Source: an uncultured Rhodospirillales bacterium (GTDB taxonomy: Bacteria; Pseudomonadota; Alphaproteobacteria; ATCC43930; CGMCC-115725). From it: a DNA stretch of 64,000 bases. Shown piece after piece: positions 3,098 to 25,557 of the stretch. Position 1 is the stretch's first letter. Each line of letters begins with the position of its first letter. The stretch spans positions 496,001 to 560,000 of the forward strand of contig CAIJOA010000011.1 of assembly GCA_903822185.1 (NCBI GenBank), given 5' to 3'. A program made the position numbers and the translations under genes. The notes beneath the pieces were generated by a model. It did no database searches. It was not told where the DNA came from and worked only from the letters and a program-made list of their open reading frames with translations.

Positions 3098-3100
3098 CGT

Positions 3101-5481: not shown

Positions 5482-7260
5482 CTATAAAGCGGCGAGTTTC
5501 GCGAAGCCCGGAGAGCTACACAATAACTCGTCGAAGCTGCCGCTGGCAACGATCTTCCCATTGTCGATGTAATGCAGAATATCGCATTTTCGGACTGTAC
5601 TCAGTCGATGGGCAATGACGATAAGAGTCTTTTTCCGGCTGAGATTTTCAATAGCGGAGGTAATTTCCCGCTCAGTGTTATTGTCCAACGCGGCCGTTGC
5701 TTCGTCCATGATCAGAACCTCGGGATCTTCGTATAGGGCGCGCGCGATACCAATTCGTTGGCGTTGTCCGCCCGACAACCGTACGCCGCGTTCTCCAATC
5801 TCCGTATCGAGACCCTGAGGCAACGCATCGACAAATTCTTCGAGTTGCGCAAAATCCAAAGCCTTGCGCACGCGCGCATCGTCTATCTCGGCATCGACTA
5901 TGCCGAACGCCACGTTCCGGCGGACCGAGTCATCCGTCAAATAAACGCTCTGAGGAATATAGCCAATATTTCTCTGCCACGAACGGATGGCCGTCCGAAT
6001 CTCAACGCTGTCGACGAAAATATTTCCCTGATAGGGCTCGAGCAATCCGATCAGCACATCGACCAGCGTCGATTTTCCCGCGCCGGATTCACCGATCAAT
6101 CCGACCGACATCCCCCGCTTTATTTCGAGCGACATTTCATTCAGCGAAGGCTTGCCGGCTCCCGGATAGGTATAGGAAAGCCGCTCGATCCGCAGGGTAT
6201 CGCTGAATGGCAGGCGAGTGGCGCTCCGGGCTTCAACGATCGACGGCGCGGATAATAATTCCGGGCGGACAATATCCAACGCGCGCTTGTGATACCGAAT
6301 AAACGTTACGAGACTCATGATGCGACTCACCGAAGGCATGAGACGTACCGCGGCGACCGCGAACAGCGTCAATGTTGGGAGAATGGACTGTATCGACCGC
6401 GGCTGATTGACCATGACGATGACCAAGGCGGTCATCGCGAAAATGGCGAGCGTCTCGATAAATAACCGCGGCGCCTGATTGGCGATCTGAATGAATCCCA
6501 ACGATTTTACGAATTGCTGACTGTGCCGCGAATAAGCATCGATGAAAAAAGATTCCCGGCCAAGAACCTTGGTTTCCTTGACCGCACCCAGGCCCTGATT
6601 GACCCACTTGATCATATCTTTGCCGTGCTGCCGTTGCTCATTTCCGTGGCGCGCGAGCGAATGCCGCAAAATACGATAAAAGCCAAAAACGGCGAGACCG
6701 AGAACGCCCAACGACACCAACGAGGTCATCGGATCGACGACAAGAAGCAGTATGGCGACGCACCCGACCAACATGCATTCCGTCGCCAGATTCATCAACG
6801 GCATAACCAAATTGGTTATGATCGTTGCCGTCTCCGATCCAATATTATGCAGCAGATCGGCGGTGTTGTGATTGAAATGAAACGTGACCGGCTTTCGGAG
6901 ATAGACTTCGAAAAGCCCACAGCCTAGCCGAGACATTTTCCGGTAGGTAAACGAGGTCTGCACGAATTGCAGACCCAGTAAATAAAAATTCTTCAGCAGA
7001 AAAAGAAGTGCAAGTCCGACGCACGCGGCGACAATGAGCTGCTTACCGCCGCCGATGCCCAGCAAATCGAAAACACCGGACAAGAAACGGTTGGCGCGAA
7101 CGCGATCAGGCTCGCCGAGCACAGCGACGAAAGCGGGAATCGCTCCGATACCGGCAGCCTCGATAAGAGCGCCGCCCGCCATCATCAACCAGATCGTGAG
7201 AAGCCGCCGCTTTTCCTGCGGGGAAAACAAGTCGAGAAGATGAGTGATAAAGAGACGCAT
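5482..7260 (-). CDS. ABC exporter, MsbA/PglK-like glycan flippase candidate
   Basis: A half-size ABC exporter (592 aa) with an N-terminal six-helix membrane domain (about residues 15-330) fused to a nucleotide-binding domain. Walker A is GESGAGKST near residue 390, the signature LSGGQRQR near 495, Walker B plus catalytic glutamate IMDEATAALD near 519, and the switch histidine in AHRLSTV. Such proteins flip lipid-linked oligosaccharides (PglK) or lipid A (MsbA). It is the last gene of a tight minus-strand operon (2-base gap to the gene upstream) that begins with a nonulosonate synthase, so export of a lipid-linked glycan is the best guess. Substrate is inference only. Confidence 0.8.
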   Translation of the reverse strand: MRLFITHLLDLFSPQEKRRLLTIWLMMAGGALIEAAGIGAIPAFVAVLGEPDRVRANRFLSGVFDLLGIGGGKQLIVAACVGLALLFLLKNFYLLGLQFVQTSFTYRKMSRLGCGLFEVYLRKPVTFHFNHNTADLLHNIGSETATIITNLVMPLMNLATECMLVGCVAILLLVVDPMTSLVSLGVLGLAVFGFYRILRHSLARHGNEQRQHGKDMIKWVNQGLGAVKETKVLGRESFFIDAYSRHSQQFVKSLGFIQIANQAPRLFIETLAIFAMTALVIVMVNQPRSIQSILPTLTLFAVAAVRLMPSVSRIMSLVTFIRYHKRALDIVRPELLSAPSIVEARSATRLPFSDTLRIERLSYTYPGAGKPSLNEMSLEIKRGMSVGLIGESGAGKSTLVDVLIGLLEPYQGNIFVDSVEIRTAIRSWQRNIGYIPQSVYLTDDSVRRNVAFGIVDAEIDDARVRKALDFAQLEEFVDALPQGLDTEIGERGVRLSGGQRQRIGIARALYEDPEVLIMDEATAALDNNTEREITSAIENLSRKKTLIVIAHRLSTVRKCDILHYIDNGKIVASGSFDELLCSSPGFAKLAAL

Positions 7261-7262
7261 TT

Positions 7263-8798
7263 TCAGAGCGGGTTTACGTGATTTCGGCTGAACCCGATAT
7301 CTTCGATTTTATGCAGCAACGCCGAGGTCAAATTGGCGACATTCTCGTCGTCGCTAACCATTGACGCCTCGCGCCGATTGCCCTGCGCGTAGCCCCGAAT
7401 GGCCGTTTCCTCGATCGCCTTGAAAAATAGGCGCAGATCCTCGATCCGAGGAAAAAATCCGTTGTGAAACACCGCGTCGATCGCCGCGCGACAACTCGCC
7501 AGGTCATCGACCGGCAAGACGCCGGGCGCATATTGATAAACATGGTGACCAAACATGAGATATGGCTTTTGTCGAAAAAGCGCTTCCCACCCCGCCGCTC
7601 CCGTAGCCGTCGATATCGCGGCGCAATTCTTCATGAGAGCGTAGGTACTCGTACCGCGCGGAACGAGGCGCACATTCGGGACATCCAGTAAGTCCTGGTA
7701 GAACACGCGGGAACGGCTGACGACACCGTATTTATCCTGCATCGGATGTTCTTTAACATAGATCAGAACATCCGGCGGCGCGGCCGCCGCGAGAAGCTGC
7801 ACCATCAGTTGTTGCTCGACGAACGCGCCGCCCATCGGACAAGTCGTGCATTCGGGCTGTAGATGCAAAGGTACGTAGATAAAGCGGCGCGTCATATCGA
7901 CGGGGTGGGCTTGCTCGTTATAGAAAGCGACCACGTCGCGAAATTCGTTATCCTGCTCTTGCCATTCGCGCCTGAACCTGAGTTTACCGATCCAGTAATC
8001 GGCTTTGACGCCCTTGAGAAGAATCGACGGCGACTTGGCGATCCGGCGAATCTTTTGCAACCATCCTTCCTGTTCGCGATCGAACGGCCGCTTCCAGATC
8101 GGATTTTTCATATAAAACGGCGTCTGATCCGATTGGATATCAGTCATTTTTTGAAACTGCCGCTCCGACCATTCGGCGAGGACCACGCGAGACCGCTCTT
8201 CCGGTGAAACTTGTTCACAAAGCTGCTTGAACCGAACGGCGAGATCGGGCGCGGGATCGTCGATGTCCTGCGTGAGAAATGACGTATCCATCCAAAGCGA
8301 CTGGCAGGAAAAAACCAACGTCGGGATATTCTTCAATTTGCACAGAACATAGACGATATAGTCGAACGATCCGTGCGGAATTCCCGAAAACAAAGTCAAA
8401 TTGATCTGATTGCGATCCAGACAATCGGCCCAATACCGGACATGTTTCAGATAAAGGGCCTTCCGCTCCGCATAGGGGAGCGGCGCCCAAATATCATTAC
8501 GATCAAACATGCGCATGACGGTCGACTCACAATGCGCCAAGGCATCGAGCAGCTTCTCATCGAGAGGCGCTAGCTTATTCCAATCGACTTTATAGTCGCC
8601 TTTCTGGACATCGATATAGAAATGGCCCTTACCCGCGATCTTTCGACCAAGATCGCGCGGTTCATCATAATAATACTCGCAATAGGTAACATTGAACGTT
8701 TCAAGGATCGGCCTAACAGCACGATGCGTCACTTCATCCGTGAACCCGAAATAGAGTAGACGCAGCGGGCTCGATGCGCGGTCGTTGATGTTATCCAT
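7263..8798 (-). CDS. Capsule-type polysaccharide biosynthesis protein
   Basis: A 511-residue cytoplasmic protein resembling capsule-synthesis (KpsC/KpsS-like, GT-B) proteins. The N-terminal half has an RLLYFGFTDEVTHRAV strand and a long helical region. The C-terminal half has YVPLHLQPE...CPMGG and VLIYVKEHPMQ, the K/R-EHP block seen in this group, and later STATGAAGWEALFRQKPYLMFG, like the GTAGWEA donor-site segment of these transferases. It sits between a methyltransferase and the ABC exporter in the operon headed by neuB. The KpsC/S group uses CMP-activated ulosonic acids, so this is a plausible transferase for the CMP-nonulosonate made by the same operon; that role is inferred. Confidence 0.65.
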   Translation of the reverse strand: MDNINDRASSPLRLLYFGFTDEVTHRAVRPILETFNVTYCEYYYDEPRDLGRKIAGKGHFYIDVQKGDYKVDWNKLAPLDEKLLDALAHCESTVMRMFDRNDIWAPLPYAERKALYLKHVRYWADCLDRNQINLTLFSGIPHGSFDYIVYVLCKLKNIPTLVFSCQSLWMDTSFLTQDIDDPAPDLAVRFKQLCEQVSPEERSRVVLAEWSERQFQKMTDIQSDQTPFYMKNPIWKRPFDREQEGWLQKIRRIAKSPSILLKGVKADYWIGKLRFRREWQEQDNEFRDVVAFYNEQAHPVDMTRRFIYVPLHLQPECTTCPMGGAFVEQQLMVQLLAAAAPPDVLIYVKEHPMQDKYGVVSRSRVFYQDLLDVPNVRLVPRGTSTYALMKNCAAISTATGAAGWEALFRQKPYLMFGHHVYQYAPGVLPVDDLASCRAAIDAVFHNGFFPRIEDLRLFFKAIEETAIRGYAQGNRREASMVSDDENVANLTSALLHKIEDIGFSRNHVNPL

Positions 8799-8804
8799 GA
8801 GAGA

Positions 8805-9638
8805 TCAATGTGCCGGTTTGCGGGCGACGACGATGAGATATTCGGATTTTGCCGGATCGAATTCCGCGCCGTCATAACCGCCCATGAATTGGAAATCGGC
8901 GAATCCCACGTCACGAAGCAAGACCTCAAGCATCGGCCGCGTATATGCGATTTCCATGTCAGCCTTACGCCGCTCTGCTCCATCACGGCGCAAATAAATC
9001 GTCTCGCTGAGAATCAGATTCTTTGTCCGATTCCGTGTTTGGCGATACAGCGCGAATTTGAATGCATTCGTCTCCGGCAGTTCAATCCATAGCTGCCGTT
9101 GATCCTCATGCATCGCGGCAAAGACCTTTTCCTGATTATGGATCTCGATAACGATGGAGCCGCCTGGCCGCAGGGCATCAAACGCCAGATCGACGAGGCG
9201 TTGTGGATAGGCTGCGTTTTCCGGACCGATGAGGCTGAACGTATTGTCGATACAGACGAAGATGTCTTTTGATTTTGGCTCATGCTTTATTTGCGCAAAA
9301 TCGGCGCAATGATTGACGATGTTCTGAAAGTCTTTGTCTTCACGCCAGCGTTCGGCAAATCGGTGGCGGCTTTCCGAGAGTTCGATGGCAACGCCGCTCT
9401 TGAGCATTCCCAGATTCGACAGTGAATAAAGCAGCGCCGAACTGCCGGCGCCGACTTCGACGACATCGACCGGCACCGTCGCACCGCACCCCGTCAGAAG
9501 AAACTCTGCGCGCAAACCACAGAAGGCAAGGCGCTCTCGACGGTAACTATCCATTTCCTCGACGCTGCGATAATTATCGGGCGCTTCAACTTGATCATAT
9601 GACGAGAAATTTTTGTTCTCGTTCCAATCGATCGTCAT
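8805..9638 (-). CDS. Class I SAM-dependent methyltransferase
   Basis: A 277-residue protein with a Rossmann methyltransferase core. SAM motif I is VDVVEVGAGSSALLYSL around residues 58-74, with an acidic residue two strands on (VAIELSESRH), followed by DIFVCIDNTFSLI as motif II/post-II and LRPGGSIVIEIH as motif III. It lies in the middle of the minus-strand nonulosonate operon, 6 bases upstream of the capsule-type gene. It probably methylates the sugar or a nearby glycan position. The acceptor atom (O or N) cannot be told. Confidence 0.78.
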   Translation of the reverse strand: MTIDWNENKNFSSYDQVEAPDNYRSVEEMDSYRRERLAFCGLRAEFLLTGCGATVPVDVVEVGAGSSALLYSLSNLGMLKSGVAIELSESRHRFAERWREDKDFQNIVNHCADFAQIKHEPKSKDIFVCIDNTFSLIGPENAAYPQRLVDLAFDALRPGGSIVIEIHNQEKVFAAMHEDQRQLWIELPETNAFKFALYRQTRNRTKNLILSETIYLRRDGAERRKADMEIAYTRPMLEVLLRDVGFADFQFMGGYDGAEFDPAKSEYLIVVARKPAH

Positions 9639-9669: not shown

Positions 9670-10377
9670 TCAAAGCGCGAGCTTGCTTAGACGCTTATCG
9701 GCTTCGGCCAGATCTTCCGGCCAATCGATATCAACACTGTCTTCCGGACCCAACACAATGGCCCCCCAACGGTCACCGTACATGCTGGGGCGCGGCATGA
9801 ATTTGCTGACGCGATTGATCCAAAATGCGCCGCTAGGATAATAATATGGCTTCAGGTTCTGAGAGACGTTGTATTCGCCATCAAGGCTGTTGCCCAGCAA
9901 CGTCGTCACCTCACCGGATTGCAAGTCTCGATTCAACACCCATTCCGGATGCTCGACGGCCCGGCGGATCGTCGCCACGCTCGACCAGGTCGGATTTCCG
10001 CGTAGCAATTCGAAAGCTTCGTCGAGTTGCGTGGGTCTTGTCAGCGGCGTAGCCGGCGTGAGCGTAACCGCATATTCCGGCACTTCGCCCGTTTTCTCTT
10101 TGATAAATTCGAGAGCATGCTTGGTGACGAGCTCGGAAGCGACGTCCTCGGAAATATCGGCGGGACGCCGAAACGGCACTTCCGCACCGTACGCGCGGGC
10201 CGCTTCCATGATTCCATCATGATCCGTGGTTACGATGATGCGATCAATCCATTTGCAGCGTTTGCACAAATCGATCGGATAAGCGATCAGCGGCTTTCCA
10301 CCGACAACGGCCAAATTCTTCAGCGGAATGCGCTTCGAGCCCCCGCGAGCATGGATCAGCGCAACAGTCCCGGCCAT
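9670..10377 (-). CDS. CMP-nonulosonate synthetase (NeuA/LegF family)
   Basis: An acylneuraminate-type cytidylyltransferase of about 235 aa that would activate a nonulosonic acid with CTP. The N-terminus ALIHARGGSKRIPLKN is the CTP-binding loop with the KR pair; IIVTTDHD and VDIDWPEDL supply acidic metal ligands. I chose the ATG at 10377 because it has a good ribosome-binding sequence (GGAGGGGA) and lies 1 base after the upstream stop; a longer reading frame from 10446 would overlap the upstream gene by 68 bases. It is in the neuB-headed operon, so its most likely substrate is the product of the synthase at 15117-16175 (legionaminate or a relative). Confidence 0.85.
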   Translation of the reverse strand: MAGTVALIHARGGSKRIPLKNLAVVGGKPLIAYPIDLCKRCKWIDRIIVTTDHDGIMEAARAYGAEVPFRRPADISEDVASELVTKHALEFIKEKTGEVPEYAVTLTPATPLTRPTQLDEAFELLRGNPTWSSVATIRRAVEHPEWVLNRDLQSGEVTTLLGNSLDGEYNVSQNLKPYYYPSGAFWINRVSKFMPRPSMYGDRWGAIVLGPEDSVDIDWPEDLAEADKRLSKLAL

Positions 10378-10378
10378 A

Positions 10379-11809
10379 TCATCCCCTCCCTCGATCAAAG
10401 GGCATGACCGAAGGTTTACCGTTTTTTTCGTAAGCGACGAGTTCATGGCGGCGCGTGACGATTTTCTCGAACGCGGCGACGATATCGTCCATATCCGCAG
10501 GCGTATTGGGATGACCTAAGAGGAAGAAACCGAGATATTCGACGTCATGCGCCAGATAGGCGTTCGGCAGCTTTGCCGGATCGTAATCCACTTTCCCGTG
10601 ATAGACTGGCGACGAGAATGGGTGGCCGCCACGGCCATAGGCCAATTTGCGCTGGAACAAAAGGTTATCGGACATCAGCCGCCCCACGCCCGTTGCGACC
10701 GGTATTCCTTCCGCACGCAACGCCAGGGCGACGGTATCACGGCTGATGCCGCTCGCTTCGCTCAACCACCGAAATGCGGCCGTATAGCTGTAAAAGCTCT
10801 CTGGATGGGTAATGCGCTGCGGCAGGAGATAACCACCGGCAACGTCATCCAAGCGCGATCTCAGATATTGATAATTGCGCTTGCGTATCTGGTTGACCAT
10901 TTCCAACTTCGAGGTCTGTACCCAGCCAAGGGCAGCCGTCGCTTCGACCATCCTGAAGTTATATCCAACGATATTGAGAGCGAAATCGTCCGTATCGTTC
11001 GGCATCGGCACCGCTTCGCCATGATTGCGAATGAGGCGGCATTTCTCCGCAACCTCCGGATTGGAGGTGATCACCATGCCCCCCTCCCCGGTCATGACGT
11101 TCTTAGGCTCCGAAAAAGAGAAGACTCCCGCGTCGCCATACGAACCCAGCATTCGGTCGTCATATTCCGTCCCAGGCGCCTGCGCGGCGTCTTCGATGAC
11201 ATGAAGATTGTGCCGCTTGGCGATGTCGAGAATGGCGTGGAAGTCTCCGGCGTTGCCGCACCAATGGACCGGCATGATTGCCTTGGTATAGGGCGTGATC
11301 GCACGTTCGACGGATGCCGGATCGAGGCACAGCGTATCGAGGTCGATATCGGCAAACACCGGCACGGCCTGGGCCGCGACGATGGCCGTCGCGGTCGCGG
11401 TGAAAGACAAAGGCGTGGTAATGACCTCAGCGCCGGGACCAACATCCAAAGCCATCAACGCCGCCGTGAGACAGGATGTCGCCGAATTCATCGCAATGGC
11501 ATAAGGCACGCGATGGGCACGCGCCCAGGCAGCCTCGAATTTCCGCACATTGGGACCGCCGAAGAACGAAGCCGGCGCATCGAGCTTTTCGAGTTCCTCG
11601 CTCGTCTGACGAAGACCTTCACGAGTTCCCGGAAGAGCGGAGCCGACGAAGCGTGAGAACAGGCCGTCGCGAACGGTTTGTGCGACAGCTTCGACTTCCC
11701 GTTCATCGATATGGGGACGCGAACTGAAAGGCTTGTTGCGGACGGCCGTGCCACCAAGCAGCGCCAAAGGCGGGGCGGCATTCGTCGAACGGGCGAAATC
11801 ACTGGGCAT
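10379..11809 (-). CDS. DegT/DnrJ-family PLP aminotransferase
   Basis: A 476-residue sugar aminotransferase, about 80 residues longer than LegC or PseC because of an N-terminal extension and an insertion before residue 85. The PLP lysine is K236 in FSEPKNVMTGEGG and the PLP aspartate lies in VIEDAAQA near residue 207. Its start overlaps the upstream oxidoreductase gene by 11 bases. The Gfo/Idh oxidoreductase plus DegT pair recalls systems that oxidise a sugar carbon and then aminate it (for example WbpB/WbpE in mannuronate pathways), but the substrate here is unknown. Not an obvious LegC or PseC orthologue. Confidence 0.78.
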   Translation of the reverse strand: MPSDFARSTNAAPPLALLGGTAVRNKPFSSRPHIDEREVEAVAQTVRDGLFSRFVGSALPGTREGLRQTSEELEKLDAPASFFGGPNVRKFEAAWARAHRVPYAIAMNSATSCLTAALMALDVGPGAEVITTPLSFTATATAIVAAQAVPVFADIDLDTLCLDPASVERAITPYTKAIMPVHWCGNAGDFHAILDIAKRHNLHVIEDAAQAPGTEYDDRMLGSYGDAGVFSFSEPKNVMTGEGGMVITSNPEVAEKCRLIRNHGEAVPMPNDTDDFALNIVGYNFRMVEATAALGWVQTSKLEMVNQIRKRNYQYLRSRLDDVAGGYLLPQRITHPESFYSYTAAFRWLSEASGISRDTVALALRAEGIPVATGVGRLMSDNLLFQRKLAYGRGGHPFSSPVYHGKVDYDPAKLPNAYLAHDVEYLGFFLLGHPNTPADMDDIVAAFEKIVTRRHELVAYEKNGKPSVMPFDRGRG

Positions 11810-12749
11810 TGAGAATTTCTTCCAGAAGAATTTGAGTAGCTAGGGCGCTGCGGCCATCCGAGGTAAGCGGAGATGACAAGCTGTCCAGATGATCCGCGAC
11901 CTCTTCGAATAACGGCACGAAACGTTCCGCCCCGGGCCGTTGCGAGGGCGTTGCTGGCCGCAGTTCCTGGTATCCGCTGTACCGATCGCTGGGCCTGAAC
12001 ACACCATATTCGAGCCGGTCACAGTTATCCAGAATCCGGATTCGCCCGGCGGAGCCGATAATATCGATCTCGAAAATGAGTTCTTCGCGCGGACCTGTCT
12101 GCTGCAAGGTGGCCACGCCTTCGGCGCCGAAAGACAGCACCGCCAAATGGCGATCCTCCCCTGTCTTTGCCGCATATTTGAGGGTGAGAGGGCCGATCAA
12201 AAAGGATAAGAGATCGAGAGCGTGTGATCCCACCGCCTCGAGCGGTCCGGCGTAAAGAGCCGTTGCCGACCGGATCGACCCCAATGCTCCACTTCGGATC
12301 ATCTCCGCGACCGTCGGGACACACCCGTCGAAACGCTTATAATAATTGACGACGAGAAGCGTCCCGGATTGTTCGCACGCGCTTACGATCGCACGGGCCT
12401 TTGCGCTCTGCCCGCCGAGCGGCTTCTCGCATAAAATCGCGCGAACCCGTCCCGCAAATGTTTCGATCTGCGACGGATGCAGATCGGGCGGCGTGCAAAG
12501 ACTGACGACGTCCAGTGTTTCCGCTCGTAACATATCTTCGATATCGGCATAGCATCGGATCGACGGCAAACGCGCTTGTGCTTTGGCGCGGCGCAGCGGA
12601 TCCGGATCGCAAGCCGCGACCAGATCGAAGCGCGCACGGCAATATTCATACGCCCGAAAATGAGTCCAGACGCCTTTACGTTTCAGGTCATCGTCGAACA
12701 GCAGACCCACCTGGCCTAATCCAACGACCGCGGCAGCATAGCGCTTCAT
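11799..12749 (-). CDS. Gfo/Idh/MocA-family oxidoreductase
   Basis: A 316-residue NAD(P)-dependent sugar oxidoreductase. The N-terminal Rossmann domain shows AVVGLGQVGLLFDDD, then VAACDPD, VVSLCTPPDLHPSQ and CEKPLGG, the EKP lysine being the usual catalytic/cofactor residue of this family. The C-terminal domain has SHALDLLSFLIG, in which the histidine is the usual catalytic position. It overlaps one base with the CBS-aminotransferase stop and 11 bases with the next gene, so these three are probably co-translated. It may oxidise a sugar hydroxyl for one of the neighbouring aminotransferases. Confidence 0.8.
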   Translation of the reverse strand: MKRYAAAVVGLGQVGLLFDDDLKRKGVWTHFRAYEYCRARFDLVAACDPDPLRRAKAQARLPSIRCYADIEDMLRAETLDVVSLCTPPDLHPSQIETFAGRVRAILCEKPLGGQSAKARAIVSACEQSGTLLVVNYYKRFDGCVPTVAEMIRSGALGSIRSATALYAGPLEAVGSHALDLLSFLIGPLTLKYAAKTGEDRHLAVLSFGAEGVATLQQTGPREELIFEIDIIGSAGRIRILDNCDRLEYGVFRPSDRYSGYQELRPATPSQRPGAERFVPLFEEVADHLDSLSSPLTSDGRSALATQILLEEILNAQ

Positions 12750-14239
12750 TATGAATCCAACGTGATACGCGCCACCTCGGCCATTTGACGGACGTCGAGA
12801 ATCGCCTTGATATTTGCGACGACATTTTCAATGTCGCTATTGGTGAGCGTGGCCGCCGAGGGCAGGCTTAAGCCCATACGCGACAAAGATTTGGAGACCG
12901 GAAAAACCGCCTCCGCGCAATACTGCTGATAAGGCGGCATTTCATGCATGGGAAAGAAGACGGGGCGCGTTTCGATGCCGTTGCGCAACAGTCTTTCCGC
13001 AAGTTCGTCGCGTGTAATTCCGATGTTGGGATCGATCAAAATCGTAAAAAGCCAAAAGATCGGATCGGCATCGGGATGGGCCGGTGGCAAGGTAATGCCG
13101 CGCGTGCCGGCCAGAATTTCGCAATAGTGGCGCGCGACGGCGCGCTTGCGCTCGAGAATATGCTCGACCCGTTCCATCTGGGCAACGCCGACGGCCGCCT
13201 GCAGGTTCGTCAGACGGTAATTATATCCGATATCCAGATGCCAATAGCGCTTCTGCTTGGACATGCCATGGTCGCGGAGCATGCGGGCTCGTTCATAAAG
13301 CGCCGCATCCTTGAAGAGGATGACACCACCTTCGCCTGTCGTCAGAGTCTTGTTGCCGAAGAAACTGAAACATCCCGCATCCCCGAACGCGCCGGTGAAC
13401 TTTCCTTTCCAACTGGCCCCCAGCGATTCAGCGGCATCTTCGACCAGCTTCAAGCCATGACGCCGCGCTATGGCGCAGAGCGCGTCCATATCGCACGGGT
13501 TGCCGTATAGATGCACCGGCATCAATGCCTTCGTCCGTGGCGTGATGGCGGCCTCGACCTTTTCCGGATCCATATTCCAGGACTGAGGATCGGCATCCAC
13601 GAACACCGGCTTCGCCCCCGTATAAATCACGACATTCGCGGTCGCGGCGAAGGTAAGGTCCGGCACGATGACTTCGTCACCAGGGCCTATTCCTAAACTC
13701 ACGAGCGCGAGATGCAGTGCGACGGTCCCATTGCTGACCGCGAGTGCGTGCGGAACATCGTGAAACTTGGCAAGCATCGATTCAAATAGGGCGACAAACC
13801 GCCCCTGCGATGAAATCCAGCCCGTTCGGATACATTCCTGGACATATTCCATCTCATTTCCATCAAGCACCGGCTCCATCACGGGATAGCGGCGATGGCG
13901 GTTGACACTCGCGTAATCGACCGGCCGTCCGACGGCGTCGATCAAGGGAATGAAGGTTATCTTCGTATCGAGCGCCGCGTTAATGGCCTCTGGCGCGGCG
14001 TCGATCGACAATGCTTTGTAGTTTTCCTGCATCGCAGCCGAAACCGGCTCTCCGATGGCGATACCGCGCAACAGGGCCCTTCTGATATCGCCGTCCGTGA
14101 CGACGCCGACAAGTTTTCCTGTCGCATCGACGACGACAAGAAAACCTGACCCCGTACGATCAAGCTCTTGCAGGGCGATTTGCAGTGCATCGCCGGCGCG
14201 TACGGTCAATTCTTGAATGGACAAAGCAGATTGAGTCAT
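12749..14239 (-). CDS. CBS-domain/DegT aminotransferase fusion
   Basis: A 496-residue fusion. Residues 1-120 form a CBS pair with the motif GVVTDGDIRRALL (residues 45-57) and a second repeat ending in TFIPLIDAVGRPVDYAS. Residues 125-485 form a complete DegT/DnrJ aminotransferase with the PLP lysine K297 in FFGNKTLTTGEGG and the PLP aspartate D268 in LVEDAAES. CBS modules bind adenine nucleotides and commonly regulate the attached enzyme; in glycan loci this CBS type is usually found on nucleotidyltransferases (as in PtmE) or arabinose-phosphate isomerases. Its start overlaps the upstream TIM-barrel gene by 4 bases. The aminotransferase part resembles perosamine-synthase-like enzymes. Substrate unknown. 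Confidence 0.82.
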   Translation of the reverse strand: MTQSALSIQELTVRAGDALQIALQELDRTGSGFLVVVDATGKLVGVVTDGDIRRALLRGIAIGEPVSAAMQENYKALSIDAAPEAINAALDTKITFIPLIDAVGRPVDYASVNRHRRYPVMEPVLDGNEMEYVQECIRTGWISSQGRFVALFESMLAKFHDVPHALAVSNGTVALHLALVSLGIGPGDEVIVPDLTFAATANVVIYTGAKPVFVDADPQSWNMDPEKVEAAITPRTKALMPVHLYGNPCDMDALCAIARRHGLKLVEDAAESLGASWKGKFTGAFGDAGCFSFFGNKTLTTGEGGVILFKDAALYERARMLRDHGMSKQKRYWHLDIGYNYRLTNLQAAVGVAQMERVEHILERKRAVARHYCEILAGTRGITLPPAHPDADPIFWLFTILIDPNIGITRDELAERLLRNGIETRPVFFPMHEMPPYQQYCAEAVFPVSKSLSRMGLSLPSAATLTNSDIENVVANIKAILDVRQMAEVARITLDS

Positions 14240-15108
14240 AGAGATTCCAGCACAGCAGTGCGCACGGCAAGAATTTGAGCCGGCGCCAGTTTATTCAGCT
14301 CGAGCGTAAGCACCGCATCGGAAAAATCCTTCAGGTACGGTACGAACCACGCGCTTTTGTCGAACGCGCAATTTTGATCGCGGACGCCGTCATTGTCACT
14401 CAAATGAAGCGCGGCGATGTGAGGCGAGAGCGTGGCGAAGAAGTCATTCCGGTCGAATTGTAGGGCGTTCGACGATACGTTCGCGTGGCCGACGTCAATG
14501 AGCAGGCCGAAATCGGGATCGCCGACATCCCGGACCAGGCGAAGAAGTTCTTCCGGATGCGCCATCGGGATTAAGCGCCGGCCATGAACGCCATTCAGCG
14601 GCGACAATACGTTATTCTCGATCAGGAAACGAACCCCCCGCTCTCGACCGTAGGCGCAAAGAGCCTGTGTCGATTCGACCAACGTCGCATAAATTCGCTC
14701 GTAGGGCGTGAAGGCATCTTCGGAGAGGGCCTTTTGGGCTTCGGGATTGCCCAACAAAGTGGTTCCCAGGTCCATCCCAAATCCACCATGAGCCGCATAA
14801 ATCGCGCCCCCCAATTCGGCGGACAGATCGATGGCGGCACGACAATGGTCAAGACTGCGTCGAAGATTGTCGGCATCTTGTGAGGCGAGGTTAAGCAAAA
14901 AAGGATTTTCGGGCGGTGGAAAATAATTGTGCACCAGCAACCGCCGCACGTTCTTTTCGCGACGCACCATCTCCAACGTCCATGCCTTTGCGACCGAGAG
15001 TTCGACAGCGCCGATATCGTGCGTTTCGCAAAGTCGGAAAATATCCGCCAGATCATGCGTCTGGAAAGACGTCGTAGAGACAAACACGTCACGGGGAGAA
15101 CTACGCAT
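14236..15108 (-). CDS. Sugar isomerase/epimerase-like TIM-barrel protein
   Basis: A roughly 290-residue protein of the xylose-isomerase-like TIM-barrel / AP-endonuclease-2 superfamily. Likely metal ligands are in VELSVAK, IYAAHGGFG, FLIENN (glutamate), LLIDVGHANV (aspartate and histidine) and ALHLSDNDG (histidine and aspartate), the usual EDH-rich set at strand ends. I chose the ATG at 15108; a longer frame begins at 15144 but would overlap the neuB stop by 28 bases. It sits directly between neuB and the CBS-aminotransferase, so it may isomerise or epimerise a keto sugar in that pathway. This family is not part of the textbook legionaminate route. Confidence 0.72.
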   Translation of the reverse strand: MRSSPRDVFVSTTSFQTHDLADIFRLCETHDIGAVELSVAKAWTLEMVRREKNVRRLLVHNYFPPPENPFLLNLASQDADNLRRSLDHCRAAIDLSAELGGAIYAAHGGFGMDLGTTLLGNPEAQKALSEDAFTPYERIYATLVESTQALCAYGRERGVRFLIENNVLSPLNGVHGRRLIPMAHPEELLRLVRDVGDPDFGLLIDVGHANVSSNALQFDRNDFFATLSPHIAALHLSDNDGVRDQNCAFDKSAWFVPYLKDFSDAVLTLELNKLAPAQILAVRTAVLESL

Positions 15109-15116
15109 GTGATCGA

Positions 15117-16175
15117 TTAATCCCCGCGCTCGAGGCTGGACCATTGCAGTATTTCGTCGGCGACAATGGTCTTGCTTGCAATAGTGCCCACAACCGAATC
15201 CCAGTCGCGCGGAGGAATGCCGGTCGCCGGCCTTTTAAAGGTCAGCATATCCGAAGTGATTTGCGTCCCAGCCTCGATGTGGATCTTGCTGACAATACTA
15301 CGGCGCATGCCTTCGGCATTGATGCGCTCGCGCTCACTCGGCTTTTTTACAGCACTGCCGAGCACCGTTTCGGCCTCGCGGATGGCGCGAACCAATTGTG
15401 CGAATTCACGAGGGTCCGCAGAGGTGCTTTGGTCAGGCCCCGGCAAAGACTTGTCCGTGGTGAAATGTTTTTCGATCACACGGCCTCCCAGCGCGACCGC
15501 CAGCGAACTCGCCGTGCAGGATTGGGTATGATCGGAAAAACCGACAGGCAGATCAAAGGCCGTGGCAAGAGTCTTCATGGCCAGCAGATTCGTGTCTTCG
15601 AAACGAGCAGGATAATCGGTCGTGCATTGCAATAGAATAATATCACGCGTGCCGCCGGCCCGAAGGGCCTCGATGCCCTCTTCGACTTCGCCGAGGTCGG
15701 CCATACCGGTGGACAAAATCACCGTTTTTCCTTCGCGGCCGATGCGTTGCAGAAACCGCGGCTCGACACACATCGCCGACGCGACCTTATAAGCCGGGAC
15801 ATCGTAGCGCGCCAAAAGATCGACATCTTCGACATTATAGGGCGTGGAGAGAAACAATATGTCCTGCTGCGCGCAGAGAGCGAGCAGGTCGGGATAATAT
15901 GCCTCGGGCAGCTCCAATTTACGCAGCATTTCCAACTGCGATTCGGCAGGATCGGTGGACAAGAGCTGATATTGGGCTTTGCCTGCCCCCGCCGTTGCGA
16001 CACGCTCGGCTTTGAATGTCTGGAATTTCACGCAGTCCGCGCCCGCACGCTTCGCTTCGATCACCATGTGCTTGGCCAGCGCCAGATCGCCGTTGTGATT
16101 GACGCCGATTTCGGCGATGACAAACGTAGGCGCATCGGGCGCAATCCGATGATGACCAATCTTAATATCGGGCAT
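15117..16175 (-). CDS. Nonulosonate synthase, NeuB/LegI family
   Basis: Condenses a 2-acetamido mannose-type sugar with phosphoenolpyruvate to give a nine-carbon ulosonic acid. The TIM-barrel domain shows FVIAEIGVNHNGDLALAK, DCVKFQTF, ILFLSTPY, YKVASAM, VILSTGM, VGFSDHT and RVIEKHFTTD, which are all family blocks (metal, PEP and sugar contacts). A C-terminal SAF (antifreeze-like) domain follows from about residue 290. I placed the start at the ATG at 16175, preceded by GAGGAG at 8 bases; the frame could begin 9 bases earlier at a GTG. The sequence differs clearly from PseI at 21.5 kb. First gene of the long minus-strand operon; with legBCG it completes a legionaminic-type pathway. Confidence 0.88.
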   Translation of the reverse strand: MPDIKIGHHRIAPDAPTFVIAEIGVNHNGDLALAKHMVIEAKRAGADCVKFQTFKAERVATAGAGKAQYQLLSTDPAESQLEMLRKLELPEAYYPDLLALCAQQDILFLSTPYNVEDVDLLARYDVPAYKVASAMCVEPRFLQRIGREGKTVILSTGMADLGEVEEGIEALRAGGTRDIILLQCTTDYPARFEDTNLLAMKTLATAFDLPVGFSDHTQSCTASSLAVALGGRVIEKHFTTDKSLPGPDQSTSADPREFAQLVRAIREAETVLGSAVKKPSERERINAEGMRRSIVSKIHIEAGTQITSDMLTFKRPATGIPPRDWDSVVGTIASKTIVADEILQWSSLERGD

Positions 16176-16303: not shown

Positions 16304-16325
16304 ACAATCGCATGTTGCGCATGTG

Positions 16326-17237
16326 ATGATAGAAAATATGTCCAATTTAGACGGTTTCCTGCTTTCTGCGGTCCACGCTTTGCCCGTTCGGACATGCCGT
16401 TCGCTCGGCTTTTCGCTGCGCGTGGGATTGACCAACGACAGTCAGATCGAACCGCGCTTCGCCACCGACTACCAGATTCAGGCCAAGATTTATTCGCCGG
16501 AAGGCGTTCAAGTCGCTTTTCACGATAATCTGGGGATTATTCGGCCCCGCGAGAAAAAGACCATTGTCGTCGATGAATTGATCGACGACGCACGCGACCA
16601 GCTGGTTATCTTCATCTTGCTGCCGCTTCGGCTCCTTGCCGAATCGCAGGATGGAATTCACTGCTCAATCAGCCGCGAAGAGCTTCATCATCTCGTCAGT
16701 TGCCAAGGTCATCAAGTCGAGTATTTCCGGCCGAGTGGATATTCAACGGGCGTTTTGCTGGCGTTTCCGGCTTACAACTACACTAAATTCCACAAGGATA
16801 TTCCGGCCGCAATCATTCAGGCACCGAAAGTATTCGTCTCGCGAGACATCGACACCTATGTGACGCTGATCAATCCGTCTCCGGTTGCCGACTACAACCA
16901 GACTCATGTGATGTCGTGCAGCGTCACGTCGGAAGACGGAACCGTCTTGAAGGCATGGAAACAAGACGTGCCCGCGTTTCAATCTGTCGCCGTGAGCATG
17001 AAAAGCGTTCTCGGTGGCACTTTTGATGAAGCCATTCGCTTTTTCTGTTTTTCGGGTTTTTGCGATACCGGCCTGCTTTTGCCGTTGATTTTTACCCATA
17101 ACGCACGCGCCCAAACACTGGGGGTCGAACATACCTTCGCGCCATTCCTCTACGGTCGCAATCTTTACGGGCCGACCCGCCGCGACATCGACCGGCAGAT
17201 AAAACGTTCGCGCTTGTTCCAGCAAATATCGACGTAA
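16326..17237 (+). CDS. Protein of unknown function (orphan pair, first gene)
   Basis: I do not recognise this 303-residue protein. It has no signal peptide and no clear membrane segment; one hydrophobic run (LVIFILLPLRLL, about residues 98-109) reads as a buried strand. Alternating polar/hydrophobic strands suggest a mostly beta structure, with two segments reading as tandem beta-sandwich units (SLRVGLTNDSQ and later DIDTYVTLINPSP). Cysteines and histidines cluster around HCSISREELHHLVSC. It could start at GTG 16323, ATG 16326 or ATG 16338. It is transcribed opposite to both flanking glycan operons and is followed after 12 bases by a second unknown gene with a similar strand-rich look. A role in glycan assembly or surface attachment is guesswork. 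Confidence 0.6.
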   Translation: MIENMSNLDGFLLSAVHALPVRTCRSLGFSLRVGLTNDSQIEPRFATDYQIQAKIYSPEGVQVAFHDNLGIIRPREKKTIVVDELIDDARDQLVIFILLPLRLLAESQDGIHCSISREELHHLVSCQGHQVEYFRPSGYSTGVLLAFPAYNYTKFHKDIPAAIIQAPKVFVSRDIDTYVTLINPSPVADYNQTHVMSCSVTSEDGTVLKAWKQDVPAFQSVAVSMKSVLGGTFDEAIRFFCFSGFCDTGLLLPLIFTHNARAQTLGVEHTFAPFLYGRNLYGPTRRDIDRQIKRSRLFQQIST

Positions 17238-17249
17238 TAAGGACGCGCC

Positions 17250-18059
17250 ATGGCATTCCAGGACGTCAAAGAAATATTGCGCACGGCTCTTCCAGAACCC
17301 ATTTTTGCAGGACTGAGGCAGGCCTTCAATTTTTGCAGGCCCGGCGAGATCGATAAGGTTCAAACGACGATCTATCTCAATACGGCGACGAGCCGGACCT
17401 ATATCGGGGTCAACAATTTCTATTCCTGGCTCGGCGCTGACCAGATCGTCAACGCGCATATAAAGGTCGTTTTTCACGACAAAGCAGGCACCCCTCGACT
17501 GACGATCAAAAAGCCGCTTGGCTTTTTCGGTTCCTGCATGCTCGATGTCCGCGAACTCTTCCGCGATCACAAGATCAATTCCGATTTCGGTATCTTCACG
17601 GTCAGCGTCAAGCCGAACAATCCGTGGAACATCGCCGTCAAAAAAATGGGCAAGAGCACGGCGATTTTCTACTGCCTTTACCAAGACGACAACGGTTCAA
17701 TCGGTCTCGTTCATCCGAACGCACGTATCGGCGATGTTGAACCGATCCATAACTGGACCAGCTTGCAGGTCATTTCGACGAAAGAACTGGCTTCCATCGT
17801 TCTCTATCAAATGCACGGCGGCGATTATTCGCACGAAGTAACCTACCGTCTCACCGCGCTGGACACTGGCGAAGAGTTGATGACCCGAACCGTCAACTAC
17901 GATCCTTTTGGAAGCGCCAAGATCGAATTTCCGATCGAAGAATGGTCGCGCATACCGGCCGAAATCATCTTGAAAGCCGACTCACTGCCATCGAGCAACG
18001 CCAAGCCGCTTCTGCAACGTGTTTTCAAGAACGGCCTGTTCAGCATCAGCCATTCGTAA
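17250..18059 (+). CDS. Protein of unknown function (orphan pair, second gene)
   Basis: A 269-residue protein I cannot assign. No signal peptide or membrane helix is visible. Beta-strand-like segments dominate (TTIYLNTATSRTYIGVNNFY, HIKVVFHDKAG, AIFYCLYQDDNGSIGLVHP, EVTYRLTALDTGEEL), giving the impression of repeated beta-sandwich units like the gene before it. An AAGGA ribosome-binding sequence precedes the ATG, and only 12 bases separate the two genes, so they form one operon. It ends 3 bases before the convergent acetyltransferase gene with no terminator in between. The pair interrupts an otherwise minus-strand glycan island, which suggests a discrete function. Confidence 0.6.
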   Translation: MAFQDVKEILRTALPEPIFAGLRQAFNFCRPGEIDKVQTTIYLNTATSRTYIGVNNFYSWLGADQIVNAHIKVVFHDKAGTPRLTIKKPLGFFGSCMLDVRELFRDHKINSDFGIFTVSVKPNNPWNIAVKKMGKSTAIFYCLYQDDNGSIGLVHPNARIGDVEPIHNWTSLQVISTKELASIVLYQMHGGDYSHEVTYRLTALDTGEELMTRTVNYDPFGSAKIEFPIEEWSRIPAEIILKADSLPSSNAKPLLQRVFKNGLFSISHS

Positions 18060-18062
18060 GCG

Positions 18063-18707
18063 CTACTTCAGAACACGCGCTGGAACACCGCCCACGGAAA
18101 CATTATCCGGCAGATTTCGAATAACGGCACTTCCCGCGCCGATAGTACACATCGCGCCGATTCGTATTCCCTGAATCACCGACGCGCCGACACCGATCAG
18201 GCTGCATTCCCCGACGTGAACGTTCCCCGACAGGGTCGCCCCGGGCGCAATATGTGCATAAGCGCCGATGACACAGTCATGGTCGACGGAAGCGCGGGTG
18301 TTGATAATCGCGCCGATACCGACCTTCACCTTAGCCTGGACCACCGCGCCGGCCATGATCTGACAACCGTCTTCCAGATTCGCAAACGAACTGGTGACGG
18401 CGGCAGGATGAATGAGGGTTGAAAACCGGTACCCCCGCAGCAAAAATTTTTCCTGGATCTCTTTTCGTAGATCAGATGCCCGCGCATATCCGACGGCATT
18501 GACCAATGCGACGTCCGTGGGAGAATGATTCAATATGACATCATCATTCCCGAGTATCGCAATATCGGGAAGCGGCGGCTCGCCTTTACCATCGAACGTC
18601 GTCACGCCGAGGACCTTCGCGCCGATTAAGGAAAGCAAATCGAGCAAAACACGCGCGTGCCCTCCGCCGCCCATAACGATAACCGGATGCGTTTGCGCGG
18701 AAACCAT
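18063..18707 (-). CDS. NeuD/PglD-type sugar O/N-acetyltransferase
   Basis: A 214-residue acetyltransferase with the two-part PglD/NeuD build. The N-terminal Rossmann-like domain binds sugar nucleotide (PVIVMGGGGHARVLLDLL), and the C-terminal left-handed beta-helix of hexapeptide repeats (from about residue 95) contains the catalytic histidine in ASVDHDCVIG and ends in SVGGVPARVLK. It should acetylate the 4-amino group of a bacillosamine- or legionaminate-type precursor (LegH role), or O-acetylate the finished acid (NeuD role). ATG at 18707 shares one base with the upstream stop (TGATG). It is the last gene of the pse operon, yet the LegH role would serve the other pathway. Confidence 0.8.
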   Translation of the reverse strand: MVSAQTHPVIVMGGGGHARVLLDLLSLIGAKVLGVTTFDGKGEPPLPDIAILGNDDVILNHSPTDVALVNAVGYARASDLRKEIQEKFLLRGYRFSTLIHPAAVTSSFANLEDGCQIMAGAVVQAKVKVGIGAIINTRASVDHDCVIGAYAHIAPGATLSGNVHVGECSLIGVGASVIQGIRIGAMCTIGAGSAVIRNLPDNVSVGGVPARVLK

Positions 18708-19744
18708 CAACTTTTACCCGTGGCAGCGTAGTTCGAGTAAATCCGGGGGTATCGCTCCATCATTTCGTTCAACCGCGAATCACGAACCTGATCGAAGGCA
18801 ACTTTTGGATAAGCCGGCCCGAACAGGCTGTTGCTGAACTGAATTTGCAGCATCAACCGATGTCCCTGCCTGACATGCTGCCCTTTGTGCAGTCCGCGCG
18901 TATCTTCGGCGAGGATAGTTCCCCGCGGTGCAACAAATTCGATGATATCCTTCGCGGGATAGTGCGATTCGATTTCCTCGTCGAGCAATCGGACATAACC
19001 TTTGGATAAAAGGTTTTTCGGGATGCCGTCGGTGCGATGGGAACCGACGACGAAGTAATGCGGTCCGTTGTCGGAGGAAACGTCCGTCAGATAGATAAAA
19101 AATTTTATCCAGCGAATACGGTCCATATCGAAATGATAGAACTGGGCCGCCTCGGAGTCCGGTTGATCGGAAAAGGCGGTGTGCCACCACATCGAAACCA
19201 CATCCGCCACGGGCTGCACGCCGAGATAAGCTTGCGCAACCGCGACGATGGCAGGATCGGCCATCAGCGCCTGTACATCCGGATGATTGATGACGTCCTT
19301 TTCATCGAAATCGTAGCGCACGCCCAGCGGCTTCAATGGATCATATATCGCGGCAATCGTTTCCCGCGACTGACCGTCCTGCAAACGCACTTTCGCCGGC
19401 TGCGTCAGAGCGAAGTCGAGCAGACGGCGGCATATCTCATCAGGGACGCGGTTCTCATAGAGAAAATAGCCTTGTTCACGCAGCGTCGGGACTATCTGGG
19501 CTACCTCCCTTTCTCGCAGAGGCTGCAACACGCCCTCGCTCGCGCTCAAAGGGCGTGGCGGATGCGCCCAGGCCATCACGCGAGCGATCAGATCATTGCT
19601 GCGCCCGCCGCTGGCACAAAATAACCGGACCATGCTTTCAACCGTTTTCCGAGGCGTCACGCCGGCGATGGCAAATGTCGAGAAAGACACGCCGAGCTGT
19701 ATCATATCGAGAAACAGACGTATCGACCGCCGTAAGCTACGCAT
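18707..19744 (-). CDS. Phytanoyl-CoA-dioxygenase-family protein
   Basis: A 345-residue protein resembling Fe(II)/2-oxoglutarate dioxygenases of the PhyH family. The iron triad reads as H204 and D206 in FYHFDMD plus the distal H286 in RGLHKG, with R296 placed to bind 2-oxoglutarate. The N-terminal 80 residues are outside the catalytic core and include a hydrophobic run. It overlaps the preceding gene by 8 bases and the acetyltransferase by 1, so it belongs to the pse operon. Hydroxylation of a glycan, lipid or nonulosonate is possible; PhyH proteins are common in polysaccharide islands but few have known substrates. Confidence 0.75.
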   Translation of the reverse strand: MRSLRRSIRLFLDMIQLGVSFSTFAIAGVTPRKTVESMVRLFCASGGRSNDLIARVMAWAHPPRPLSASEGVLQPLREREVAQIVPTLREQGYFLYENRVPDEICRRLLDFALTQPAKVRLQDGQSRETIAAIYDPLKPLGVRYDFDEKDVINHPDVQALMADPAIVAVAQAYLGVQPVADVVSMWWHTAFSDQPDSEAAQFYHFDMDRIRWIKFFIYLTDVSSDNGPHYFVVGSHRTDGIPKNLLSKGYVRLLDEEIESHYPAKDIIEFVAPRGTILAEDTRGLHKGQHVRQGHRLMLQIQFSNSLFGPAYPKVAFDQVRDSRLNEMMERYPRIYSNYAATGKS

Positions 19745-22555: not shown

Positions 22556-22610
22556 TGTCTCGATCCACCTTTTTAAGGCGAAGAAGTATTCGTGAACCCC
22601 GAACGCCGCC

Positions 22611-23356
22611 TCACGACGACGCAAGCATTTTTTGCTCAATGCCCGCATTGAGCGCCGGCAATTCGGGATGTCGGCTTAAAAGCGACAAGATTTCGTTCAT
22701 CCCGAAGACTCCATCCGGCGTGAACAAGGCGCCGTAAACGGCTTCGATGAAGCGCCAGTCTTCGATCGTATCGAGCGTCCAGCGGTACTGCGAATAGTCG
22801 GGATCACCGCCGAAATTGCGCAGCCGGAAGCGATCGGGATGGCGGTAGATAAAAGGGGTCACATGTTCGCGCTCGTCGTCCCGTGCGGCGTTACGATACG
22901 CTTGCTCGAGAGCGGCGAAGGTGAATATTTCCGCATCCAATCCACGCGGGAACCGGCGCGTGAGGGTGTTGCTGAGATAGTCGATACCGGGAACAGATTT
23001 CTGAGCCACCGCAAAGCTTCTCAGCATCTCCCCCAACAGTCCCCCTTCGAACAGGGGACAATCCGACGTAACACGCACAACGACATCAGCATCGTGCGCC
23101 GACGCCGCGAGATAATAGCGCGCTAACACATCCGTTTCACTGCCGCGGAACAGCGTCGCACCAAGAACCCGCGTGGCCGCAGCGATATCATCATCAACTG
23201 AATGGTCGGTTGTCGCGACGATAATTTCGTCGATACCCTGCGCCCTGGAAACGCGCTCCACGACATGAGAAAGAACGCTCCTGCCGCAGAGGGTTTTAAG
23301 AACCTTTCCGGGCAAGCGCGACGAATTCATACGCGCCTGGATAATCGCAGCCGTCT

Positions 23357-23360
<4 letters not shown>
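22611..23360 (-). CDS. pseF: Cytidylyltransferase, SpsF/PseF-like
   Basis: A 249-residue nucleotidyltransferase with the N-terminal loop IIQARMNSSRLPGKVLKTL, the form found in SpsF-type and many PseF-type enzymes. EIIVATTDHSVDD and VRVTSDCPLF supply the base- and metal-binding residues. It lies directly between pseC (4-base overlap) and pseI, so CMP activation of pseudaminic acid is the natural role. The SpsF family also contains enzymes of spore-coat polysaccharide synthesis whose sugar is not certain, so the symbol rests on context. Confidence 0.72.

Positions 23361-25557
<2,197 letters not shown>

Follow-up and report, generated by a model that had tools for sequence, protein, structure and literature searches.

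A Six-Gene Operon of an Uncultured Rhodospirillales Bacterium and a Putative NeuC-Independent Route to Nonulosonates

Organization of the Operon

This study concerns a six-gene operon in the genome (4.27 Mb) of an uncultured Rhodospirillales bacterium, located within a stretch of 64,000 nucleotides (positions 496001-560000 of contig 11), hereafter referred to as the window. The operon starts with a gene for a NeuB-type nonulosonate synthase and ends with one for a CMP-sugar synthetase, and a first-pass annotation of the same DNA had described the four genes between these two as tightly overlapping. We found that the overlapping operon is real, as all six genes are intact, lie on the minus strand and give domain matches, as listed below in window positions.

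15117-16175, minus strand: NeuB-type nonulosonate synthase with SAF domain (PF03102, 287.4 bits, plus SAF)
14236-15144, minus strand: AP_endonuc_2-type TIM barrel, the mark of module 1 and a candidate substitute for NeuC/LegG (PF01261, 73.5 bits; cut-off 31.1)
12749-14239, minus strand: CBS pair fused to a DegT aminotransferase, GDP-perosamine-synthase-like (PF00571 and PF01041), hereafter CBS-DegT
11799-12749, minus strand: oxidoreductase of the Gfo/Idh type, which together with DegT2 makes up module 2 (PF01408; nearest solved sequence 3q2k, 54 bits)
10379-11809, minus strand: a further DegT aminotransferase, termed DegT2, the partner of Gfo/Idh in module 2 (PF01041, 298 bits)
9670-10446, minus strand: CMP-sugar synthetase (PF02348, 75.1 bits; start possibly an internal ATG near 10377)

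As annotated, the successive overlaps from NeuB to the CMP-synthetase amount to 28, 4, 1, 11 and 68 bases, the first (28) and the last (68) of which become shorter if internal ATG codons are used as starts. The NeuB start is the ATG at 16175, with a GTG at 16184 as an alternative.

Compared with the models of known pathways, the operon NeuB scored 398.2 bits with the neuraminic model TIGR03569, just short of its cut-off of 399.65, and 278.9 bits with the pseudaminic PseI model (cut-off 340.25). The CMP-synthetase scored 130 bits with the PseF model (cut-off 205.7), again below the pseudaminic threshold. No NeuC/LegG partner is encoded inside the operon, the nearest LegG lying 9.7 kb from NeuB on the opposite strand, and a LegB above its cut-off is present in the window yet outside the operon. 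The operon oxidoreductase matched the Gfo/Idh family PF01408 only, and not the KdnB type of the Kdo8N pathway. Membership of the TIM barrel in PF01261 was indicated by both the profile match and the fold.

Association of the TIM Barrel and CBS-DegT with NeuB

Relatives of the TIM barrel were collected by a three-sequence alignment search of genome contigs in which NeuB was not used as bait. This search gave 93 relatives, from which 80 loci were kept (TIM loci); a single-sequence search of the same contigs gave no relatives. The hosts include Pelagibacteraceae, Prochlorococcus, Bacteroidetes, Geobacter, Planctomycetes and Lysinibacillus, among others. Relatives are rare in the bacterium's own class, the Alphaproteobacteria, being found in 2 of 289 genomes, namely its own genome and G258, which is the genome of locus L070 (Rhodospirillaceae bacterium SP279) as judged from identical NeuC coordinates and scores.

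The gene content of the 80 TIM loci was scored by home-made profiles. A NeuB gene was located within 6 kb of the TIM barrel gene in 74 of the 80 loci; in 67, a gene matching the CT or the SpsF cytidylyltransferase profile was no more than 10 kb away. CBS-DegT was present in 48 loci, in 39 of which it was the gene directly after the TIM barrel, and a NeuC-like gene was detected in three. Two of the four middle genes, the TIM barrel and CBS-DegT (module 1), are a module conserved far beyond chance. Because this pair accompanies NeuB and a cytidylyltransferase in many phyla, it is best explained by the earlier suggestion of an unusual route to a nonulosonate precursor. Elsewhere among the TIM loci, the partners of the TIM barrel are GMD (GDP-mannose 4,6-dehydratase) with a plain DegT, other dehydratase-like short-chain dehydrogenases/reductases, or a CBS-fused nucleotide-sugar dehydrogenase.

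Plasmid records also gave matches to the TIM barrel, one of which, in Azospirillum, is at a NeuB locus, where the CMP-synthetase, TIM barrel and CBS-DegT genes are consecutive and NeuB lies 3.4 kb beyond on the opposite strand. Two weak cyanobacterial matches had no NeuB nearby, and three further plasmid matches were haloarchaeal. In phage records and viral contigs, no relatives were found at the sensitivity used. The first-pass annotation had named independence from neuB as the observation that would count against its idea. Such independence is partly true of module 2, as described below, and for module 1 it is limited to two of the 80 loci and the two distant cyanobacterial plasmid relatives.

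Fusions of NeuB with the TIM barrel, hinted at by long open reading frames, were rejected, as these frames proved to be start extensions or runs of N and therefore give no evidence of fusion; three plasmid NeuB matches with partial cover were likewise not TIM fusions on inspection. No second case of the six-gene combination was seen among the surveyed loci when DegT2 was compared by BLAST with the TIM loci and their flanks of up to 10 kb. The top reading frame outside the window (191 bits) was the CBS-DegT of L051.

Scarcity of NeuC in Genomes Carrying the TIM Barrel

Fifty of the 80 genomes carrying the TIM barrel gene (TIM genomes), picked by hand before the result was seen, were examined for enzymes that release the NeuB substrate in known pathways. 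NeuC/LegG (TIGR03568) was above cut-off in only 7 of the 50 and PseG in 9, and neither was above cut-off in 36. The laboratory strain Picosynechococcus PCC 7117 is a TIM carrier in which neither enzyme passed its cut-off. Ten of the 50 loci are RefSeq NZ_ records, seven of them in genomes with neither enzyme. Among 289 genomes of the class that served as controls, 22 had NeuB above cut-off, and every one of these also had NeuC above cut-off. After removal of the two TIM carriers (the bacterium's own genome and G258), NeuC was present in 20 of 20 control genomes as compared with 7 of 50 TIM genomes (Fisher, 5.5e-12). At NeuB scores of at least about 340 bits, 37 of 38 class genomes had NeuC. 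Nine of ten TIM-locus NeuB proteins scored were above the NeuB cut-off and belong to the same family, and the NeuC comparison is therefore fair, apart from differences in taxonomy and completeness.

The seven exceptional genomes carry nine NeuC genes, each separated by no gene or one gene from another NeuB. Eight of the nine lie in stretches that have no sampled 60-mer in common with the TIM locus analyzed. The ninth (L085) shares an island with the TIM locus, where the other NeuB is one gene away and the TIM-side NeuB three genes away. Since NeuC is mostly absent and in the exceptions sits beside another NeuB, the TIM barrel and NeuC behave as alternatives.

Resemblance of CBS-DegT to GDP-Perosamine Synthase

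The best solved match of the DegT domain of CBS-DegT was the GDP-perosamine synthase (PerA) structure 3bn1, with 396 bits and 50.6% identity, as compared with identities of 41.8% to the LegC of the window and 35.5% to PseC. At sixteen positions, 85% or more of 49 CBS-DegT proteins have the residue of PerA, whereas both LegC proteins compared differ from it; two positions favor LegC instead, gap columns apart. The residues E194, R222 and W224 are kept as in PerA. The first-pass annotation had held that none of the four middle genes belongs to a known route. This was only partly right, as CBS-DegT is LegC-like in a broad sense (381.2 bits with the LegC model TIGR04181, below the legionaminic cut-off of 420) and nearer to GDP-perosamine synthase.

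GMD was above cut-off in 40 of the 50 TIM genomes and in 6 of 14 control genomes. When the TIM genomes were split by hand from gene maps, GMD was found in 33 of 36 with CBS-DegT and in 7 of 14 without it, and four of these seven carry GMD inside the locus. By the home-made profile, GMD lies inside 14 of the 80 TIM loci. The bacterium studied here also encodes GMD (533 bits; cut-off 415), 10.5 kb beyond the window on the same contig.

Structure of the TIM Barrel

An AlphaFold2 model of the TIM barrel had a mean pLDDT of 94.1, and its best solved fold match was 3wqo (MJ1311; VIA Z 25.8, root-mean-square deviation 2.5, 247 aligned residues). Endonuclease IV ranked tenth with Foldseek and was absent from the best 50 VIA rows, the fold comparison covering the families that VIA and Foldseek listed. 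A profile search matched 3wqo at 3.8e-20, as compared with about 4e-4 for endonuclease IV. Fifteen columns are invariant in 68-70 relatives, including H61, H108, E165, D206, H209, H236, D245 and E271 (alignment numbering), among which we take some to be metal ligands of the isomerase/epimerase class, and H61 and H108 presumably correspond to endonuclease IV-type metal ligands. When the nine metal ligands of endonuclease IV are compared by sequence alignment, eight positions are invariant and match in type, and the D-x-H motif reads D-x-N. A stretch of the form HNYFPxP...PFxLNxA is not in the solved relatives aligned.

No other gene shared by almost all the loci could release the substrate of NeuB, and by elimination the TIM barrel is the candidate for this role, with an epimerase as a serious rival. 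We consider it somewhat probable that the TIM barrel takes the place of NeuC across the family.

Other Genes of the Window and of the TIM Loci

The surroundings of the operon in the window contain further genes of nonulosonate and polymer synthesis.

8805-9638, minus strand: methyltransferase, the next gene downstream, a possible tailoring or polymer gene (Methyltransf_31, _25 and _11 above cut-offs)
7263-8798, minus strand: Capsule_synth (PF05159) protein, a candidate transferase for the sugar (35.2 bits; cut-off 20)
5482-7260, minus strand: ABC exporter-type protein (Walker A and LSGGQ seen by eye in the translation)
18063-18710, minus strand: NeuD/PglB-type sugar N-acetyltransferase, outside the operon, a candidate for the acylation step (TIGR03570, 211.3 bits; cut-off 160.8)
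2057-5457, plus strand: LegB-LegC-LegG (4,6-dehydratase, aminotransferase and hydrolyzing 2-epimerase), a separate or rival precursor source

The home-made Capsule_synth profile gave six matches across the surveyed loci, with the window counted. The LegB-LegC-LegG genes, on the opposite strand and 4.2 kb from the end of the operon, were not mentioned in the first-pass annotation. They scored 487.6 bits for LegB (2057-3097; TIGR04180, cut-off 475), 497.1 bits for LegC (3101-4300; TIGR04181) and 406.1 bits for LegG (TIGR03568, cut-off 235.9). A pseudaminic gene set at 21503-25536, which includes the true PseI of the window (21503-22648, 485.9 bits), went unmentioned as well. The nonulosonate island further contains a PhyH-type dioxygenase (18707-19744). 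The window also encodes a 593-residue protein (19737-21518) with no Pfam or NCBIfam match and with relatives in five other TIM loci, and two plus-strand proteins (16323-18059), likewise with no Pfam or NCBIfam match, which separate the NeuB operon from the NeuD-like gene.

The genome carries six NeuB genes. Three of them lie in a second island on contig 14 (9382-26350; L123 and L124), together with a CBS-nucleotidyltransferase, a Gfo, a class III aminotransferase-like gene, a CMP-synthetase and NeuC. The contig 14 NeuB that is above cut-off is followed by the CBS-nucleotidyltransferase, with no match to the LegB or DegT profile in the stretch read, and LegB-LegC-LegG may therefore serve that NeuB.

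Several other families were observed in the TIM loci. A family of about 500 residues (L066:5428-6954 and relatives; one member scanned, no Pfam match) occurs in 22 TIM loci, and is possibly a new nonulosonate transferase. A divergent second class of NeuB, with GEIACGHQG and MYADHTDASL motifs, is present in L010, L012, L013, L021, L033 and others. A DHDPS-like protein (one member scanned, PF00701) occurs in seven loci, each with a divergent NeuB as judged by eye. An HMGL-like aldolase-family protein of about 540 residues (one member scanned) was found in L028, L034, L036 and L019, from Prochlorococcus and alphaproteobacteria. A CBS pair is fused to a nucleotide-sugar 6-dehydrogenase in L046, L064, L070, L072, L074, L076, L079 and L085. 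CBS pairs thus occur on three early enzymes: DegT, nucleotidyltransferase and nucleotide-sugar 6-dehydrogenase.

A Putative Route from GDP-Mannose and Its Alternatives

Gene content, the association statistics, the absence of NeuC and the sequence closeness to GDP-perosamine synthase were directly observed; from them we infer the reactions and products given here, the role of the CBS pair and everything said of the Gfo/DegT2 step. For the window, we favor a NeuC-free nonulosonate route from GDP-mannose via GDP-perosamine, to which we give somewhat less than an even chance. GMD would convert GDP-mannose to GDP-4-keto-6-deoxymannose, which would be aminated at C4 by CBS-DegT, the CBS pair probably being a feedback sensor on this committed step. 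After N-acylation by an enzyme of the NeuD, GNAT or formyltransferase type, the TIM barrel, replacing NeuC/LegG, would free 4-acylamido-4,6-dideoxymannose from the nucleotide; no 2-epimerization would be needed, because the mannose configuration is already right. NeuB would then condense this sugar with phosphoenolpyruvate to a 7-acylamido-3,7,9-trideoxy-nonulosonate with a hydroxyl group at C5, which would be activated with CMP. In this genome, Gfo/Idh and DegT2 may oxidize and aminate one further position, perhaps C8.

Every proposed step is represented in three loci. Their orders are NeuB-NeuD-TIM-DegT-GMD-CT in L069 (where the NCBIfam gmd model was above cut-off), NeuB-formyltransferase-TIM-DegT-GMD-CT in L053, with a formyltransferase-family protein as the acyl step, and NeuB-NeuD-TIM-CBS-DegT-CT-GMD in L047. 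A GDP-perosamine N-formyltransferase is reportedly known in Brucella. The SAF-domain arginine of NeuB, which binds the 2-acetamido group, is kept in nearly all aligned rows and does not discriminate. UDP-GlcNAc and the LegG product, with which the first-pass annotation had proposed reconstitution, are probably the wrong precursor, and GDP-mannose-derived sugars are a better first guess.

Several points weigh against this route. The control and TIM sets are unlike in taxonomy and completeness, and many of the genomes are incomplete metagenome-assembled or single-cell genomes. NeuB is missing from the 6 kb around the TIM barrel gene in six of the 80 loci; in L079 and L083 it is farther off, L076 and L081 end at a contig edge, and in L063 and L077 roughly 20 kb contain none. 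The nearest solved structures of the TIM barrel are mostly isomerases or epimerases (3wqo, xylose isomerase, Art22 and YcjR). A tree of DegT proteins places PerA and LegC both inside the CBS-DegT clade, without separating them, and the LegC side of the residue comparison consists of two proteins. GMD is a common gene, and it is absent from three of the 36 CBS-DegT genomes and from seven of the 14 other TIM genomes. In the genome studied here GMD lies about 20 kb from the operon, as compared with only 4.2 kb for LegB-LegC-LegG. Finally, the closest relative locus, L006 (TIM barrel 51% and DegT 61% identical), has LegB (525.5 bits; cut-off 475) beside NeuB and, by eye, a short LegC-like reading frame, and GMD was not found in its 13-kb contig, the genome of L006 being outside the 50.

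The last of these points bear on another possibility, in which CBS-DegT would be a LegC under regulation that uses the product of LegB, and the TIM barrel would be a non-homologous substitute for LegG or for its 2-epimerase half, the end product being an ordinary legionaminic-type 5,7-diamino acid. A legionaminic-type route is possible in the window, because LegB-LegC-LegG is nearer than GMD and the closest relative locus carries LegB; LegB occurs in 4 of the 80 TIM loci, L006 included. The score of CBS-DegT with the LegC-family model and the isomerase/epimerase fold of the TIM barrel also agree with this explanation. However, that score is below the LegC cut-off, and CBS-DegT is PerA-like at the 16 near-invariant positions as compared with two of the opposite kind. 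Moreover, GMD occurs in 14 loci versus four for LegB and in 33 of 36 genomes, LegB having been counted in the loci only. We consider such a legionaminic-type pathway rather unlikely.

A further explanation makes the idea of the first-pass annotation specific, in that LegB-LegC-LegG would supply the hexose, NeuB would make legionaminic acid, and the four middle genes would modify it by an extra amino group or as an epimer. The distribution of module 2 bears on this. DegT2 relatives (E at most 1e-50) occur in 16 of the 289 class genomes, own genome counted, and for 11 of the remaining 15 genomes longer stretches were analyzed (L130-L140; L141 was included on account of its TIM barrel gene). Gfo/Idh was adjacent to DegT2 or one gene away in 10 of the 11 stretches, and a cytidylyltransferase-family gene (CT or SpsF) lay beside the pair in nine of the ten. 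The best DegT2 relative, with 46% identity, is in such a Gfo-DegT2-cytidylyltransferase run (L091/L130), in the order NeuC fragment, Gfo, DegT2, CMP-synthetase and amidotransferase, with identities of 29, 46 and 39% of Gfo, DegT2 and CT to those of the window. The view of the four middle genes as one set was not borne out, since Gfo/Idh and DegT2 are a separate module that accompanies cytidylyltransferases in genomes of the class that gave no match to the TIM barrel.

The gene order of L130, the presence of LegB-LegC-LegG in the window and the position of Gfo and DegT2 between NeuB and the CMP-synthetase are consistent with modification of legionaminic acid, as is proposed for ElaABC or AciABCD in Acinetobacter. 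A putative role as oxidoreductase in the synthesis of 8-epilegionaminic acid is given for ElaA (PMC9676051), and we considered ElaA/AciABCD as a match for the four genes by description, not by sequence. However, 43 of the 50 TIM genomes have no NeuC/LegG above cut-off, and in the other seven NeuC is beside a different NeuB. Modification by all four genes appears improbable to us, and it is possible for Gfo and DegT2 alone. These two probably introduce an amino group, either into the acid itself or into the sugar that precedes it; C8 as the aminated position is a guess by analogy with Kdo8N.

We consider it quite improbable that the TIM barrel is a keto-sugar epimerase (YcjR/tagatose-3-epimerase-like) that alters a configuration ahead of the DegT step, with a generic cellular hydrolase freeing the sugar. 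Such an enzyme would fit the CBS-DegT gene directly after the TIM barrel in 39 loci, the closest folds and the invariant metal ligands of that class, but it leaves the missing NeuC unexplained, and the extra invariant H61 and H108 and the NLAS...HxG stretch resemble endonuclease IV, a phosphoesterase.

Discussion

The proposed route from GDP-mannose shares with the legionaminic pathway (LegB, LegC, LegH, LegG, LegI and LegF) a NeuB-type synthase, a CMP-synthetase, a DegT 4-aminotransferase, a NeuD-type acyltransferase and, in some loci, LegB. It differs in having an unrelated TIM barrel for LegG/NeuC, a CBS-fused aminotransferase nearer to PerA, and GMD as the commonest dehydratase. CBS-DegT is about 50% identical to the Caulobacter GDP-perosamine synthase (3bn1/3dr7) over the whole DegT domain, E194, R222 and W224 included, but it has an N-terminal CBS pair and sits in a nonulosonate operon. 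The CBS-nucleotidyltransferase of nonulosonate loci, which we take to be PtmE/LegX and which has a copy in this genome (L123:10577-11620), is likewise an early enzyme that bears a CBS pair at NeuB loci; the partner of the CBS pair is a nucleotidyltransferase there and DegT here. In the Kdo8N pathway, which consists of KdnB (an iron alcohol dehydrogenase), KdnA and KdsB, there is a similar run of oxidoreductase, DegT and CMP-synthetase, and KdnA (5k8b) is among the DegT2 matches. However, the operon has Gfo/Idh instead of KdnB, and the KdnA match is unspecific, as CBS-DegT matches KdnA too. The TIM barrel shares its fold and metal-ligand pattern with the superfamily of MJ1311, endonuclease IV and D-tagatose 3-epimerase (PF01261), and differs from the solved relatives aligned in its HNYFPxP...PFxLNxA stretch.

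By analogy, the best outside support may come from the Serratia marcescens KL1/KL2 capsules. There, KDN (a mannose-type nonulosonate) is reportedly made with NeuA and a NeuB bearing an added COG1082 domain, the KDN:Neu5Ac (N-acetylneuraminic acid) ratio is about 20:1, disruption of neuB abolishes sialic acid, and the word neuC is absent from the text (PMC9000132). As in the proposed route, NeuB is coupled there to a COG1082-type (sugar phosphate isomerase/epimerase) domain and the product has a hydroxyl group at C5, whereas no DegT step is named and the product is KDN. The likeness of the COG1082 domain to the TIM barrel rests on description, not sequence, which counts with the points against the route listed above. 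We found no route of this kind in a search of open-licence papers, which does not show its absence from print.

A broader proposal, which we put forward tentatively and with more doubt than the route itself, is that nonulosonate pathways include a second class that does without NeuC and is marked by the TIM barrel, which would be a nucleotide-sugar hydrolase dependent on metal and descended from endonuclease IV-like enzymes. It would free several amino sugars for NeuB, of the GDP-perosamine type and others via CBS-linked UDP-sugar dehydrogenases. Many bacteria, including SAR11 and Prochlorococcus, would then make 5-hydroxy, 7-amino nonulosonates that present schemes would name legionaminic acid or miss. 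Current calls for sialic-acid-like sugars rest on NeuB and UDP-GlcNAc chemistry. If the route from GDP-mannose is true, it would represent a new class of sugars in whose synthesis NeuC is replaced by an unrelated enzyme, could account for the presence of a COG1082 domain on the Serratia NeuB that makes KDN, and would explain the NeuC-less NeuB loci of marine and soil bacteria.

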